Program-made: the position numbers and the translations under genes | Part shown: piece by piece, positions 5,922 through 11,613 of the stretch | How positions within the stretch are numbered: the first letter of the stretch is position 1 | Layout: every line of letters starts with the position of its first letter | Virus record (IMG/VR): IMGVR_UViG_3300032286_000851 | Coordinates: 1-25,706 of that record | Source of the DNA: a virus | Strand: one strand, 5' to 3' | Length of the DNA: 25,706 nucleotides | The notes under the pieces: generated by a model | Database searches by the model: none | What the model saw: the letters and a program-made list of their open reading frames with translations, nothing else | What the model was told of the DNA's origin: nothing

Positions 5922-7769
5922 TTACCAATTGTTGACGAATGCAGGGCCAGCAGCGGCGGCCTTCTTTGATCTTAGCGGAGCTGTTGGTTGTTCCAAGCGG
6001 CGTTCCAGCTGATCCCATATTGTGCGTCGATCATAGCGCTGGTACATCAAATTCAATGCCGCATACGCATAGACCAAGCAATCAAGCGCTTCATTCCGTG
6101 CCGATGGTTTCTTGACCCACTCACGAACCGGAAAACCCTTCACGAAACGTAATGCCTGCTTTTCAGCGGTCAGTTGCTCAAAATATTCAGTGCCTGTTTC
6201 GTTATGAAAATGTAAAAACCCGGGGCCGATCTCGTTATGGCGCAACCGGCCAAATAACGTCGTCTTAATGGTGTCGCCACCAACCGGGTAGACCGATGCG
6301 CCGCGCTTCAGCGATTTACCTGCGCTATTAAGGTCCACCTTGCTAGCTTTTCCGATTGGTGGCTTGCCCCGCTGGCTGGAGCCTTTGATCGCCACCACGC
6401 CCTGGCGGCCGCGTTCACGCGCATATTGATACACCTCATTTGTCATATGACCGCCACTATCGATTGCAACTACATCGGGTCGCAGCTTTCCGTTTAGCTC
6501 ATGCGGCCATTCACGCAGCACTACCTCGTCCAATTGCTTCCATACCTCCGCCCTGGCTGGATCGCCAAAGATCTCTTGGTGATGTATCAACCAGCCCTCC
6601 TCATCGCGGCCCCAGCCCCATACGCTTACGGCTAGCCGGTTGTCCTGTACGTCAACACCAGCCGTCAATGCCAGCGCTCCGGCAGGAAGCACATCAGGCT
6701 CATAGGCCTCGCAGCGTTCCAGCAACGCGTCAGCGCCGATCTTGCTTGCATAATCTTCTTCCCATGTTTCGCCCAGCACCGTATTGACCCATGTCTTCAA
6801 CGCTTCCGGGTTGGTCTTGGCTTCCAAGAATTCTTCCACCAAATGCGGCCACGTTGCATTAGGGCTATAGCTATACGCTGCCCAGATATGAAAACCGATA
6901 TGCCTACCGTTGCCCGGTGCAGTTGCTAGCCATTCGCCATTTTCTACCATCCACCGCTTTTTGCTATGCGGAATCAAGACACCGCATGATTCGCAGCAAT
7001 ATGCAGCAGTGCTTGGATCGTTATCGCTCCAGCGCATATTGGCCCATTTCAAATATTGCTTATGGTTGCAATCAGGGCACGGCACAAAATAACGCCGCTG
7101 GTCTGTTTCGCCAAACATCCGCTCAATGCGGCTGAAATCTTTGACAGTGGGCGTACTGCCCGCAATGATCTTGCGGTTCCAATAATATTCAGATCGCCTG
7201 ATGCCAAGCTTGATCTGGTCACCTTCGGTGCCAGCGCTAGGCGGATAACCATCGACTTCGTCAAACAACACCACCCGCCGGCTGACACGGCGAAAACCCC
7301 GAGGGCTATTGGCGCCAACAAGGCTTAATGTCCCGCCAGGGAATTGTTTCTGCAAGATTGTATTGGCGCCATCTTTAGCCTTGGCATCACTAACCAATCC
7401 AGCCAGTACAGGCGTATCACGCAGCATTGGCGCTATCTCTTCCTTTGAGTAGCCTTGCGCGTCTTCGATCGTTGGTTGGATCAACATAATCGGGCATGGA
7501 TCCTGGTGGATGTGAAACGCAATTGCGTGGTTAAGAATCTTGGTGTAGCCAACCCGCGCAGACTTCATCACCGTGATCTGCTCCACCCGTGGGTCAGTCA
7601 CTGCATCCATAATCCCTTTCTGGTATGGCAACGTATGCCACCGCCCTGCCTCGGCGCTGCTTTCAGCCGACAGAAACGCAAACTTATCGGCCCATTGGCT
7701 AAGGGTCAGCTTTTCCGGTGGCCTGAAGCCCTCCAACGCATCAAGCACCAAGGAATTGATATCAGCCAT
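5922..7769 (-). CDS. terL: Terminase large subunit, lambda GpA family
   Basis: This 615-residue motor-nuclease packages DNA into the prohead. The Walker A-like motif KSARVGYTK (residues 69-77) is the lambda-type variant, and Walker B is VVLFDEVDG (D170, E171). A zinc-finger-like insert has CPDC at 231-234 and CCESC at 258-262. The C-terminal nuclease domain has GVDVQDNRL (D373) and VAIDSGG (D437). GpA terminases normally act on cos sites, so the element probably has cohesive ends. The ATG at 7769 lies inside the 3' end of terS (8-bp overlap), the usual coupling of the two subunits. I see no damage. Confidence 0.93.
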   Translation of the reverse strand: MADINSLVLDALEGFRPPEKLTLSQWADKFAFLSAESSAEAGRWHTLPYQKGIMDAVTDPRVEQITVMKSARVGYTKILNHAIAFHIHQDPCPIMLIQPTIEDAQGYSKEEIAPMLRDTPVLAGLVSDAKAKDGANTILQKQFPGGTLSLVGANSPRGFRRVSRRVVLFDEVDGYPPSAGTEGDQIKLGIRRSEYYWNRKIIAGSTPTVKDFSRIERMFGETDQRRYFVPCPDCNHKQYLKWANMRWSDNDPSTAAYCCESCGVLIPHSKKRWMVENGEWLATAPGNGRHIGFHIWAAYSYSPNATWPHLVEEFLEAKTNPEALKTWVNTVLGETWEEDYASKIGADALLERCEAYEPDVLPAGALALTAGVDVQDNRLAVSVWGWGRDEEGWLIHHQEIFGDPARAEVWKQLDEVVLREWPHELNGKLRPDVVAIDSGGHMTNEVYQYARERGRQGVVAIKGSSQRGKPPIGKASKVDLNSAGKSLKRGASVYPVGGDTIKTTLFGRLRHNEIGPGFLHFHNETGTEYFEQLTAEKQALRFVKGFPVREWVKKPSARNEALDCLVYAYAALNLMYQRYDRRTIWDQLERRLEQPTAPLRSKKAAAAGPAFVNNW

Positions 7770-8238
7770 CAGCTACGTCTTCCAGCGCTTCACGCACAAT
7801 ATCTTCCAAAATCACAAAGGCATCCTGCGGAAAATCTGGTATTCGTTGCTTAGCCTTAGACGGAATTCCAAGGATCTTAGTCCTTGCTATTGCCACTACT
7901 TCGCCCCATTTTAACGCTATTTCTCTTGCGCTAACCAGCTCTTTTTGTTTCTCTGCGCGTTCAAGTTCAAGCAACTCTGCCTTCAGAAACTCAGTCCTGG
8001 CCCGGCTTTCGTTGTAATCCGGTATAGACTTGTCAGTTGGTGATTGATCTGCTACCTTACCCCCGTTTATCCGTGTTTGAGTTGTTAGTGCCCAGTGTTC
8101 ACGCAAACCCTCCAGCTCGATCATTTCCTTGCCAGTTACGCTCATCTTTGTTTTGACGCGACCCTCTTTGATCGCCCGCGTGATTGCAGACGGACCAATA
8201 TTTAATGCCCTGGCGGCTTCGGCTTTAGTGACAAGCAT
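7762..8238 (-). CDS. terS: Terminase small subunit (Nu1-like)
   Basis: This 158-residue protein has an N-terminal winged-helix/HTH motif (TKAEAARALNIGPSAITRAI, residues about 4-23), as in lambda Nu1. A middle helical region (SRARTEFLKAELLELERAEK) probably mediates assembly, and the C-terminal part (about 100-158) would contact the large subunit. It would recognise the packaging site and recruit TerL, whose gene overlaps its end. The 331-bp gene-free stretch just upstream carries phased repeats, which is where lambda has cosB, the Nu1 target. The ATG at 8238 has only a weak upstream GGTGAG, about 12 bases away. Confidence 0.8.
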   Translation of the reverse strand: MLVTKAEAARALNIGPSAITRAIKEGRVKTKMSVTGKEMIELEGLREHWALTTQTRINGGKVADQSPTDKSIPDYNESRARTEFLKAELLELERAEKQKELVSAREIALKWGEVVAIARTKILGIPSKAKQRIPDFPQDAFVILEDIVREALEDVADG

Positions 8239-8267
8239 GCCGGCATATTAGCTCACCAGCAAAAAGC

Positions 8268-8296
8268 TTGCACAGTGCTGGGGTAGGGGTTATAAT
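8268..8296 (+). promoter_or_regulatory. Sigma70-type promoter, plus strand, antisense to neighbouring operons
   Basis: TTGCAC (8268-8273), a 17-base spacer and a perfect TATAAT (8291-8296) predict transcription starting near 8303 on the plus strand. No plus-strand gene of convincing length follows; the longest is an 18-codon frame from ATG 8342. A transcript would run through the repeat region and into antisense of the genes at 8570-10036. The LexA-type palindrome at 8318-8331 lies just downstream of the start point. The seen facts are the two hexamers and their spacing; use as a promoter is inferred. Confidence 0.5.
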
Positions 8297-8317
8297 GCCT
8301 GGCCCCGTTCACAAAGT

Positions 8318-8331
8318 AGTACGGTTGTACC
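8318..8331. promoter_or_regulatory. LexA-type palindrome upstream of terS
   Basis: AGTACGGTTGTACC fits the pattern RGTACNNNDGTWCB reported for cyanobacterial LexA boxes (recalled, not looked up). The half-sites AGTAC and GTACC are separated as in the units of the array at 10249-10473. A further left half-unit, TAGTACAAA, lies at 8371-8379. The site sits about 15 bases downstream of the predicted plus-strand start near 8303, and on the minus side in the leader of terS. It may bind host LexA or a phage repressor with the same specificity. Confidence 0.45.
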
Positions 8332-8393
8332 TAGTTATATAATGAGCCTCGAATTCACCCGCGGCCAGGGTAGTACAAAGGACCCAATTTGCT

Positions 8394-8512
8394 ATTGATT
8401 GTCAATAACAATAAGCTATTGATAGTGAGAATCAATTCTCAATAGTGCAAGCGATAATGACAATCAATTGCAATAAAATGGGCTTGCAATTGACAATCAA
8501 TCGCAATAAAAT
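8394..8512. repeat. Phased repeats in the terS leader: candidate TerS binding (cosB/pac) region
   Basis: Three direct copies of TGA(C/G)AATCAAT occur at 8426, 8458 and 8491, with spacings of 32 and 33 bp, close to three helical turns. The last two extend to 22 bp (8458-8479 and 8491-8512) with a single mismatch. An exact inverted copy of 13 bp (ATTGATTGTCAAT, 8394-8406) pairs with 8489-8501. A hairpin-like GAGAAT-CA-ATTCTC lies at 8427-8440. The block is AT-rich and directly precedes terS, as cosB does in lambda. Function is inferred; no cosN cut site could be identified. Confidence 0.5.
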
Positions 8513-8520
8513 CGCACACT

Positions 8521-8549
8521 AAAAAGCCCCTAGCTTTAGGCCAGGGGCT
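8521..8549 (-). terminator. Rho-independent terminator ending the 8570-10036 minus operon
   Basis: Read on the minus strand, AGCCCCTGGC and GCTAGGGGCT form a 10-bp stem with one G-U pair, a 5-base loop and a following run of five T. It lies 21 bases after the stop of the 61-residue gene at 8570. It separates the accessory operon from the terS-led packaging operon, so the latter needs its own promoter or antitermination. Confidence 0.8.
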
Positions 8550-8569
8550 GAGACTTGGTGTCAATTAAG

Positions 8570-8755
8570 CTAGAATTCAGGGTCTAGTTTGCATTGAAAA
8601 ATCAATTCATCTAATTCTTCGATTAACTCTATCAATTCGGTGCAGTCCAGCCGTTGCCGGCGCCTATGCAATAGATTAGTTTTTAGGTCGCCTAAGTGCT
8701 CCTCAGCATCTGCAATGCTGCTGAAATGGATATCCGGCCAAGATAGGTTGTGCAT
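8570..8755 (-). CDS. Small hypothetical phage protein (61 aa)
   Basis: The gene begins at ATG 8755, sharing one base with the stop of the Cys-rich protein gene upstream (TAATG), which decides this start over longer in-frame openings. The 61-residue product is acidic and helical, with a central basic patch (HRRRQRL) and a Leu/Glu-rich helix (TELIELIEELDELIF) that could mediate a coiled-coil or protein contact. I do not recognise the family. It is the last gene before the terminator at 8521. Confidence 0.6.
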   Translation of the reverse strand: MHNLSWPDIHFSSIADAEEHLGDLKTNLLHRRRQRLDCTELIELIEELDELIFQCKLDPEF

Positions 8756-9435
8756 TATTGAGCCCCCGCGATAGCGGCCGAGGCCTTGGCCTTGCTGGCA
8801 CCGTGAGCAATAAAGGCCACAATCAACTTCGCTGGCCTGGTATGGCATATGGCGCATGTTGCACAGGTAACGGTGCTATCTGGCCTTTGAGCGGGGCAAA
8901 TTACTACCCGATTGCCGGCTGGTGTATTCCAAGCGGTTCTAGTCTCACTAGCTGGCACTGCTAGCACCGCAGGCAAGCCAGCAGACACGGCAGCATCGGC
9001 CGCTAATTCGGTCTCAGTGCTTACGTTAACGGCGAATCCTTGCCGGTTGGCTTGCCTGATTAACGCTAAGTTCTCGCCCTTGCTTAAGTCGTGGTGAGTG
9101 TAAGTATAACCGCGTTTGCCTTTGTTAGCTGCAATCATACGCCTTACAAAGCGCCTAGATATCCGGCCGCCAGTGTGCACTAGGTCGCCCGCTTGATCGT
9201 GGCGCCATAACTGAGCGTAAGGCAATGCATCAATATCTGCCAAGAATTCAGATAAGGGCTTGCCTCGCTTGCCATTGGTAACAGCATCCCAATGAATTTT
9301 TAGCGGAAAGTTTTCGGCATAACAGCCGTTACCAAGAAAGGGACAGGTCGGGGAACATGTAGCGCGGCTGCTGGTGCTAACAGGAATTGGGCCGGTTTTA
9401 GTGTTGCTAGATACTAATGAAAGGTGGAATAACAT
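8755..9435 (-). CDS. Cys-rich conserved phage protein, radical-SAM-like (Gp37/Gp68 type) candidate
   Basis: From ATG 9435 the product has 226 residues. A TTG at 9492 would add 19 residues, but the ATG start gives MLFHLSLVSSNTKTGPIPVS, the opening I recall for this phage family. Cys27, Cys31 and Cys38 (CSPTC...GNGCYAE) form CX3CX6C, and a second cluster is C180 and C191-X2-C194-X2-C197. Alternating strands (LWRHDQAGD, GYTYTHHD, FAVNVSTE, AVLAVPA, VVICPAQ) suggest a partial (beta/alpha) barrel, like the phage Gp37/Gp68 proteins related to radical-SAM enzymes. The first cluster lacks the classic CX3CX2C spacing, so iron-sulfur chemistry is unproven. Function is unknown. Confidence 0.65.
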   Translation of the reverse strand: MLFHLSLVSSNTKTGPIPVSTSSRATCSPTCPFLGNGCYAENFPLKIHWDAVTNGKRGKPLSEFLADIDALPYAQLWRHDQAGDLVHTGGRISRRFVRRMIAANKGKRGYTYTHHDLSKGENLALIRQANRQGFAVNVSTETELAADAAVSAGLPAVLAVPASETRTAWNTPAGNRVVICPAQRPDSTVTCATCAICHTRPAKLIVAFIAHGASKAKASAAIAGAQ

Positions 9436-9492
9436 TTGAGGGACTGCGTTGGGATTGGGGCCAGTGAGCCACTGGCAGGGCTTTGGTAACAA

Positions 9493-9736: not shown

Positions 9737-10036
9737 TCATGCGAGGCCCCTCCGCACTTGGTGGCGGGTGATGCCGAGGCGGGCCGCTATGGCGCGTTGG
9801 CTTAGGCCGGCAGCTGCTAGCGATTGGATAGTAGAGGGCTGGGCCTGAGCATCGATGCGATCGGCTAGTAGCCGCAGCCAAGCGGCGACATAAGGCGCCA
9901 ACCTGACGGCGAGAACATGCACTACGGCGACGGCGATCATTGCGGCACCGATCACGGCCGAGGCAATTGCCACTAGGTCCAGGCTGCGAAGCCAAGCGGC
10001 CAGATCATCAATAGGAGGGAAGGACGGGGAGGTCAT
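9737..10036 (-). CDS. Membrane-anchored helix-turn-helix protein
   Basis: From ATG 10036 the 99-residue product has a transmembrane helix at about 19-48 (VAIASAVIGAAMIAVAVVHV) and an amphipathic linker. A C-terminal Hin-recombinase-like HTH follows (IQSLAAAGLSQRAIAARLG, then ITRHQVRRGLA) and runs to the last residue. The protein could hold DNA at the membrane or act as a membrane-tethered regulator. The same frame is open upstream to a GTG at 10159, but that extra sequence looks non-coding. It is the first gene downstream of the palindrome array, so the array may control it. The TM-HTH order is unusual for a protein of this size. Confidence 0.55.
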   Translation of the reverse strand: MTSPSFPPIDDLAAWLRSLDLVAIASAVIGAAMIAVAVVHVLAVRLAPYVAAWLRLLADRIDAQAQPSTIQSLAAAGLSQRAIAARLGITRHQVRRGLA

Positions 10037-10248
10037 AGGAGGGAAGTGCGACGGGATGACGCAAGGGACAGCTGTCGCCTCGCTCTTGCATTCTGCCGAT
10101 ATATAGGCCACTGGCGACCCATTGCGGCCAATTTGCCAATTGGCACAAAGTGCGGCCACCTAGGCCAGCTTGCGGCTGTGGCGCGTTACTTGGCACGGCG
10201 GCGCCTCGGCACCTTGGGGAAGCGGGCAGCACCAACCGGCACCGCAGC
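10037..10248. other. GC-rich stretch without a confident gene, between array and HTH gene
   Basis: No frame here is convincing. Open frames exist on both strands but have skewed Arg/Pro/Ala composition. A 12-bp perfect palindrome TGCCAATTGGCA lies at 10134-10145, inside a wider inverted repeat CCAATT-N4-AATTGG at 10128-10143. If promoters in the array drive the minus operon, this stretch is a ~200-nt leader, and the palindrome could be an operator or RNA structure. Confidence 0.35.
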
Positions 10249-10473
10249 TAGTACAAATGCACACTAATACAAATGTATTAATTAACGGTAGTGTTATAAA
10301 ATAATATTGCGCTCTAAATATAATGCAAATGTACTATAGTACAAATGTACTATTAATACAAATGTACTTTAGTATGCATGCACTATAGTACAAACGTATT
10401 AATCAACGATAGCGTTATATAGTAATATTATGCTTTTGTTATAGTACAAATGCACTATAGTACAAATATACCA
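10249..10473. repeat. Array of nine 16-bp palindromic units (LexA-box-like operators or iterons)
   Basis: Units related to TAGTACAAATGTACTA start at 10249, 10265, 10321, 10337, 10354, 10370, 10386, 10442 and 10458. Most neighbours abut at a 16-bp pitch (one at 17). The unit at 10337 is a perfect AGTACA-AA-TGTACT palindrome and fits the recalled cyanobacterial LexA pattern RGTACNNNDGTWCB. The unit at 10265 is a perfect palindrome with both half-sites changed together (TAATACA-AA-TGTATTA). Two 40-bp spacers (10281-10320 and 10402-10441) match at 29 of 40 positions. So 10265-10352 and 10386-10473 form a larger direct repeat offset by 121 bp. The block is strongly AT-rich and gene-free. Confidence 0.85.
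10333..10361 (-). promoter_or_regulatory. Promoter-like pair inside the array, minus strand
   Basis: On the minus strand, TTGTAT (10361-10356), 17 bases and TATAGT (10338-10333) form a plausible promoter made from two array units. A further pair, TTGTAC (10344-10339), 16 bases and TATATT (10322-10317), lies just downstream. Protein bound to the palindromes would cover both hexamers. Direction is towards the HTH gene at 10036. Confidence 0.35.
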
Positions 10474-10541: not shown

Positions 10542-10589
10542 TTTAAACCGACCCCTTGCAAGTCCCTTAAACCGACCCCTTGCAAGTCC
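10542..10589. repeat. Two tandem 24-bp repeats downstream of the gpZ-like gene
   Basis: Two head-to-tail units, 10542-10565 and 10566-10589, differ only at the first base. Each reads TTAAACCGACCCCTTGCAAG plus TCC and contains the 8-bp palindrome CTTGCAAG. The second unit ends at the stop codon of the 255-residue gene. No stem-loop with a U-run fits a terminator. Possible roles are a protein site, part of an origin with the adjacent array, or a slippage duplication. Confidence 0.8.
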
Positions 10590-11394: not shown

Positions 11395-11446
11395 CCCCAA
11401 TCGCTCCTCAACTGTAGCACCAGGTGGTGGGCGGCAGCCCGGGGAT

Positions 11447-11613
11447 CTTTCCTACCTACCTACCTACCTACCTACCGCCTAACACTGGTCCGTTTATCCC
11501 CCCCTCTCCCCTTTTATACAAAGTTATAGAAATAGGTAGGTAGGTAGGAAGTAGGAAGAACGCAGTGGTGAACTGGGAAGTGCCTTTCCTACCTACCCTT
11601 TTCTTTCCTACCT
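11447..11613. repeat. CCTA/TAGG tetranucleotide repeats in opposite orientations
   Basis: Six CCTA units plus CC lie at 11451-11476, four TAGG units at 11533-11548, and shorter CCTACCTACC and CCTACC tracts at 11588-11598 and 11608-11613. In minus-strand RNA, the middle tract (CCUA)4 can pair over 16 bp with the downstream (UAGG)6, or with the shorter upstream GGUAGG tract that overlaps the primase stop. The spacer 11477-11532 holds a C-rich run. No gene lies between 11357 and 11607. Confidence 0.85.

Follow-up and report, generated by a model that had tools for sequence, protein, structure and literature searches.

The closest described packaging system is that of phage lambda, in which cos is arranged as cosQ-cosN-cosB and is served by the Nu1/gpA terminase; the sites for the small terminase subunit (TerS), cosB, are located between cosN and terS, and the overhang is 12 nt long. 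Fur boxes of the 7-1-7 type (TGATAATNATTATCA) represent a second point of comparison, with one box before an iron gene. The consensus of the cyanobacterial LexA (SOS) box has been given as AGTACWNWTGTACT and as RGTACNNNDGTWCB, and host genes were listed with a single box per promoter (PMC3091678). There is precedent for a cyanophage that makes use of a host regulator by carrying its sites: in the marine cyanophage S-PM2d, host PhoB binds the phage promoters, with Pho boxes placed before individual genes (PMC10976474). Headful packaging was assigned by PhageTerm to phage S-LBS1 (PMC6157547).

We analysed a 25,706-nt stretch of viral DNA, referred to here as the window. The initial annotation had described its large terminase subunit (TerL) as GpA-type, and both Pfam domains found in the protein agree with this (Table 1). 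By TerL, the closest isolate is the freshwater Synechococcus phage S-LBS1 (MG271909), with 47% identity, and a cyanobacterial host is therefore likely rather than proven. A TerL search of genome contigs for the host returned only three distant MAG matches, none of them cyanobacterial. The right arm also encodes a conserved DUF7227 protein (8755-9492), which is present in large Pseudomonas phages and in P-SSP2-like cyanophages as well.

The repeats of interest, termed slot 1, sit between the terminator (8549-8525) and terS (8238-7762), both on the minus strand. A pattern scan of the window for TGASAATCAAT gave four matches at 8394-8501, the only ones in 25.7 kb, and the reversed control pattern gave 0 matches in the same 25.7-kb window. 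The three direct copies reported previously at 8426, 8458 and 8491, 32-33 bp apart, are indeed present, as TGAGAATCAAT at 8426-8436 and TGACAATCAAT at 8458-8468 and 8491-8501 (spacings of 32 and 33 bp), and a fourth copy lies in reverse complement at 8394-8404. The inverted 13-mer noted at 8394-8406 (ATTGATTGTCAAT) is likewise exact, being the reverse complement of 8489-8501. The top repeated 11-mer in 8360-8520 has four copies (at most one mismatch, both strands), compared with a maximum of three copies of any 11-mer, and a mean of 1.6, in 500 dinucleotide shuffles of this region. The repeat units are longer than was first seen, forming boxes of ~17-23 bp (e.g., TTGCAATTGACAATCAATCGCAA), and the inverted 13-mer is a further copy of the same near-palindromic box. 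A sigma-70 promoter reading of 8200-8620 was rejected as not interpretable, with six hits against 1.0 expected, mostly inside the repeats.

Table 1. Features of the window considered in this study.
Feature	Position	Strand	Sequence or support
terL, GpA type	5922..7769	minus	PF05876 + PF20454 (GpA ATPase and nuclease domains); PHROG 15
terS	7762..8238	minus	PHROG 57 terminase small subunit, E 3e-23
Left-end element in the cosN-terS interval, candidate TerS/cosB site	8325..8334	minus	CTAGGTACAA; CTAGG conserved
cosN, inferred 13-nt 5' overhang	8347..8359	minus	GGTGAATTCGAGG; contig ends and adapters
GGGTCCT, cosQ-like position	8379..8385	minus	19 nt before the overhang, right-end side
Slot 1, box 1	8389..8411	none	TTGCTATTGATTGTCAATAACAA
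Slot 1, box 2	8423..8444	none	Includes TGAGAATCAATTCTCA, a Fur-type palindrome lengthened by one base at its centre
Slot 1, box 3	8454..8474	none	ATAATGACAATCAATTGCAAT; 4 mismatches to TGAGAATNATTCTCA
Slot 1, box 4	8484..8507	none	TTGCAATTGACAATCAATCGCAAT; 3 mismatches to TGAGAATNATTCTCA
Intrinsic terminator of last right-arm operon (upstream)	8525..8549	minus	Marks the array as intergenic
Slot 2, LexA/SOS-type boxes	10250..10472	none	AGTACAAATGTACT and variants; matches consensus AGTACWNWTGTACT (PMC3091678)
Third box type, two copies inside slot 2 (10284, 10405)	10284..10421	none	AACGRTAGYGTTATA; related boxes in L035, L121, L208

The contig ends of related phages place the virion left end at 8359, running downwards, and the right end at 8347. 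In a TerL search of viral contigs, those of three near-identical phages (L006-L008) all begin at window position 8359 with GGTGAATTCGAGG, or a sequence very like it, and run leftward, and those of L089 and L090 (90% identity in a right-arm protein) stop at window position 8347 with GGTGAATTCRAGG. Left and right ends thus share 13 nt, the overlap that filling-in of 5' overhangs during library making would produce. The overhang forms the start of 41 of 80 TerL loci (in 39 to within two bases; in the other two, adapter or vector sequence comes first). Scanning the relatives with the pattern GGGTCCTT-N18/19-GGTNNNTYCGRA yielded 87 stretches, in 17 of which the contig stops exactly 13 nt past the first overhang base. 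An Illumina adapter (AGATCGGAAGAGC) follows directly after the 13 nt in L122 and L177, and adapter sequence precedes GGTTG in L018. Untrimmed adapter or vector sequence was observed at the ends of five public viral contigs (L018, L122, L177, L009 and L049) and represents a direct mark of physical DNA ends.

These ends indicate a lambda-like cosN, 35 bp from the first repeat, in agreement with the earlier expectation of a cut site nearby; the mapping is strong, albeit indirect, and comes from assemblies rather than from virion DNA. Defined ends with a 5' overhang, as inferred from the assemblies, are found together with a GpA-family TerL and an adjacent TerS. The locus shares with lambda cos the GpA-family TerL, an HTH-bearing TerS whose gene adjoins the cut, a staggered 5' overhang, and short conserved elements flanking the cut on either side. 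Throughout the family GGGTCCT keeps a distance of 18-20 nt to the overhang, with varying flanks, and CTAGG, ~26 nt inwards from the left terminus, is the same in all 14 left ends that were aligned. Between cosN and terS the repeat array is absent, and the conserved CTAGG is a candidate cosB element. A LexA-like sequence in this interval (AGTACGGTTGTACC, 8318-8331) overlaps the conserved CTAGGTACAA and was set aside as probably incidental. The S-LBS1 record begins at the terS start codon. Uniform 13-nt cos ends were seen in metagenome contigs of the S-LBS1 TerL family, in contrast to the published headful mode; the headful call may concern another situation or may merit a second look.

Among relatives, slot 1 was significantly repetitive (exceeding all 40 shuffles) in 41 of 74 distinct right ends, compared with three of 41 left ends, and ~45% of the right ends are without a significant array. 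The repeated word differs between the arrays of different phages. The word is often the Fur-type palindrome TGAGAATNATTCTCA, exact copies of which number 22 in 31 kb of right-end DNA and 0 in 49 kb of left-end DNA. L035 has as many as five that match exactly or nearly so, and some phages have the longer form GAGAATGAGAATCATTCTC. Slot 1 is occupied by the LexA box AGTACAAATGTACT in L211 and L208, and by a related RGTACNNNDGTWCB box in L177; in L175 and L221, box types are mixed inside one slot. Box types without a matched regulator also occur, such as TTGCANNNNNTGCAA or ATAACGNTATCGTTAT in some phages.

A second array, slot 2, lies 2-4 kb upstream of cos; in the window it is flanked by the minor tail gene on one side and a small gene on the other. 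It has about nine box positions (10250, 10266, 10322, 10338, 10355, 10371, 10387, 10443 and 10459), mostly 16-17 bp apart. Matches to AGTACWNWTGTACT within 10250-10472 include an exact copy at 10338, two copies with one mismatch and five with two, which identifies these as LexA boxes. The content of slot 2 changes between close relatives, with Fur boxes in L035 and five LexA boxes in the near-identical L039. Across the 14 whole records (~half a megabase), exact AGTACNNNTGTACT and GAGAATNATTCTC matches were confined to the two slots, as located from cos, and reversed control patterns of the LexA- and Fur-type boxes gave 0 matches in the same records; these two results are the main safeguards for a matching of arrays to consensus sequences that was done after the arrays had been seen.

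Other repeats were observed around slot 2. Direct repeats of 24 bp (GACTTGCAAGGGGTCGGTTTAAGG, minus strand) are present at 10548-10585, right after the minor tail gene, and GACTTGCAAGGGGTCGGTTTAAGG also precedes slot 2 in L047, L059, L091, L095, L132 and L208. The palindromic box AAACAGTGCTGTTT stands beside LexA boxes in slot 2 of L047, L059 and L121, and slot 2 of L208 (8437-8650) is an array of TTGCANNNNNTGCAA palindromes. Tandem TAGG/CCTA repeats in both orientations occupy 11430-11610 of the window, just after the primase gene; similar repeats, CCTAACCT, follow the primase gene of S-LBS1. A Pho-box reading of the S-LBS1 repeats was set aside because of this direct adjacency to the primase gene and their resemblance to the TAGG repeats of the window.

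The identity of the boxes differs in certainty between the slots. Exact cyanobacterial LexA boxes are present in slot 2 of the window and in the slots of L039, L047, L211 and L221; unlike host promoters, the phage intergenic DNA holds 4-9 tiled boxes, mostly one every 16-17 bp. Exact Fur-type sequences (TGAGAATNATTCTCA, GAGAATGAGAATCATTCTC) are present in the slots of relatives, whereas the slot-1 boxes of the window are variants in the same place, with 3-4 mismatches of 14 to the strict palindrome, and 4-8 boxes lie beside cos instead of one before an iron gene. The window boxes are tied to the Fur type by the alternation of orthologous boxes between ATTGATTGTCA and ATTGATTCTCA in L089 and L090, by a slot-1-type box (TTGCAATTAATTCTCA) with which the LexA array in the second slot of L089 ends, and by mixed forms such as TTGAGAATCAATTGCAAT in relatives. 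A Fur assignment, with slot 1 of the window as a degenerate Fur-type array, appears only moderately likely; the description as an operator-like array is firmer. A 50-kb stretch of plasmid pAQ7 with iron genes, from a different cyanobacterium, contained no strict TGANAATNATTNTCA box and one 2-mismatch site only, located in the initial part of a gene for an iron transporter. S-LBS1 showed no LexA box (at most two mismatches) and no Fur-type box (at most three mismatches). No Fur or LexA domain was detected by Pfam in the 14 whole records; the LexA model also missed the S. elongatus control, so that the absence of a phage LexA is weakly supported.

The initial annotation interpreted the repeats as TerS binding sites like those of lambda cosB. 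A TerS-binding element of this kind, cosB- or cosQ-like and needed for packaging, would suit an A+T-rich, roughly helically phased array that lies 35 bp from the mapped nick and is also present in the close relatives L089 and L090. However, the cut separates the array from terS: the array lies towards the right end, the wrong side for cosB. Nor is it conserved with TerS: five phages (L188, L155, L164, L130 and L199) have a TerS 100% identical to that of L181 over 150 aa and left ends 87-97% identical to it, yet share 0 10-mers with it in slot 1, at 19-37% aligned identity. As these five come from different metagenomes, a single assembly chimera is argued against, although each contig could individually be a chimera joined at cos; the comparison covers relatives outside the window's own clade. 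Similarly, the TerS HTH region is at least 96% shared between L035, L039 and L139, with 6-8 boxes, and L047 and L060, with no boxes. GGGTCCT, the overhang and CTAGG stay fixed at cos across the family while the array varies, which makes GGGTCCT and CTAGG the better-conserved candidates for TerS elements, and the box types of the array recur 2-4 kb away in slot 2. The comparison of related phages that had been proposed contradicts the earlier interpretation; a lambda cosB role for the array was rejected on position and on the TerS-identical phages, and any TerS-binding role needed for packaging seems quite improbable. Weak or non-specific contact of TerS with the array may nonetheless occur.

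Rapid turnover of box types between close relatives, as seen here, is typical of phage immunity regions, and the boxes could be operators of a phage-encoded regulator that is exchanged with its sites, their likeness to Fur and LexA boxes being convergent or inherited. Just downstream of slot 2, 9737-10159 encodes a small protein whose C-terminus carries an HTH (HTH_23 below the cut-off), and the box types for which no factor is known (TTGCANNNNNTGCAA, ATAACGNTATCGTTAT) would fit as well. We nevertheless consider a phage regulator unlikely, given that many boxes exactly match the published cyanobacterial LexA consensus (PMC3091678) and the Fur-type palindrome, that no LexA or Fur domain was found in the 14 records, and that single slots mix box types (L175, L221). 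The motif is wholly different between phages with similar genes, there are two separate slots, and many boxes are recognisable regulator sites; these observations leave replication-origin iterons or a recombination hot spot very doubtful, even though A+T-rich tandem near-palindromic repeats at a genome end, next to a right arm exchanged between relatives at cos, are what such elements might look like.

The reading that we favour, and regard as somewhat probable, is that 8394-8507, between cosN and the terminator at the right end of a cos-packaged cyanophage genome, comprises four operator-like boxes rather than a terminase site, forming one of two changing slots in the family, and that these are most likely bound by host regulators, with a gating or titrating effect. 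Since the records yielded no gene for Fur or LexA, host regulators are the most likely binders. The repeats, the position of cos, the identity of the LexA boxes, that of the Fur boxes in relatives, the slot confinement and the lack of linkage to TerS are read directly from sequence; from these we infer binding by host Fur or LexA and an effect on transcription or titration. After infection, joining of the ends at cos would bring slot 1 upstream of terS and the late operon, and slot 2 would lie upstream of the right-arm operon. Bound host regulators could then control both the right-arm operon and, after sealing of cos, the late operon with terS, according to the SOS or iron state of the cell, much as PhoB acts at the S-PM2d promoters. 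Alternatively, the tiled boxes could soak up the host regulator as the phage DNA multiplies. The position before operons fits gating; the 16-bp tiling, and the change of regulator type without a change of neighbouring genes, would fit titration somewhat better. More tentatively, and less probably than not by some distance, the two-slot exchangeable arrays of host operators (LexA, Fur-type and others) may, as the phage genome is copied, serve as decoys and draw regulators away from the host chromosome, a counter-regulation by DNA only whose targets are swapped fast. The cyanophage Pho boxes differ in this respect, as they are not multi-copy exchangeable arrays at fixed slots.

These results correct a natural but probably wrong reading of the repeats as cosB, and provide a base-exact candidate cos for a widespread cyanophage group, the best isolated relative of which had been described as a headful packager. 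Arrays of host-regulator-like boxes, exchanged between close relatives at constant sites, would make the use or titration of host SOS and iron regulators by these phages directly testable.
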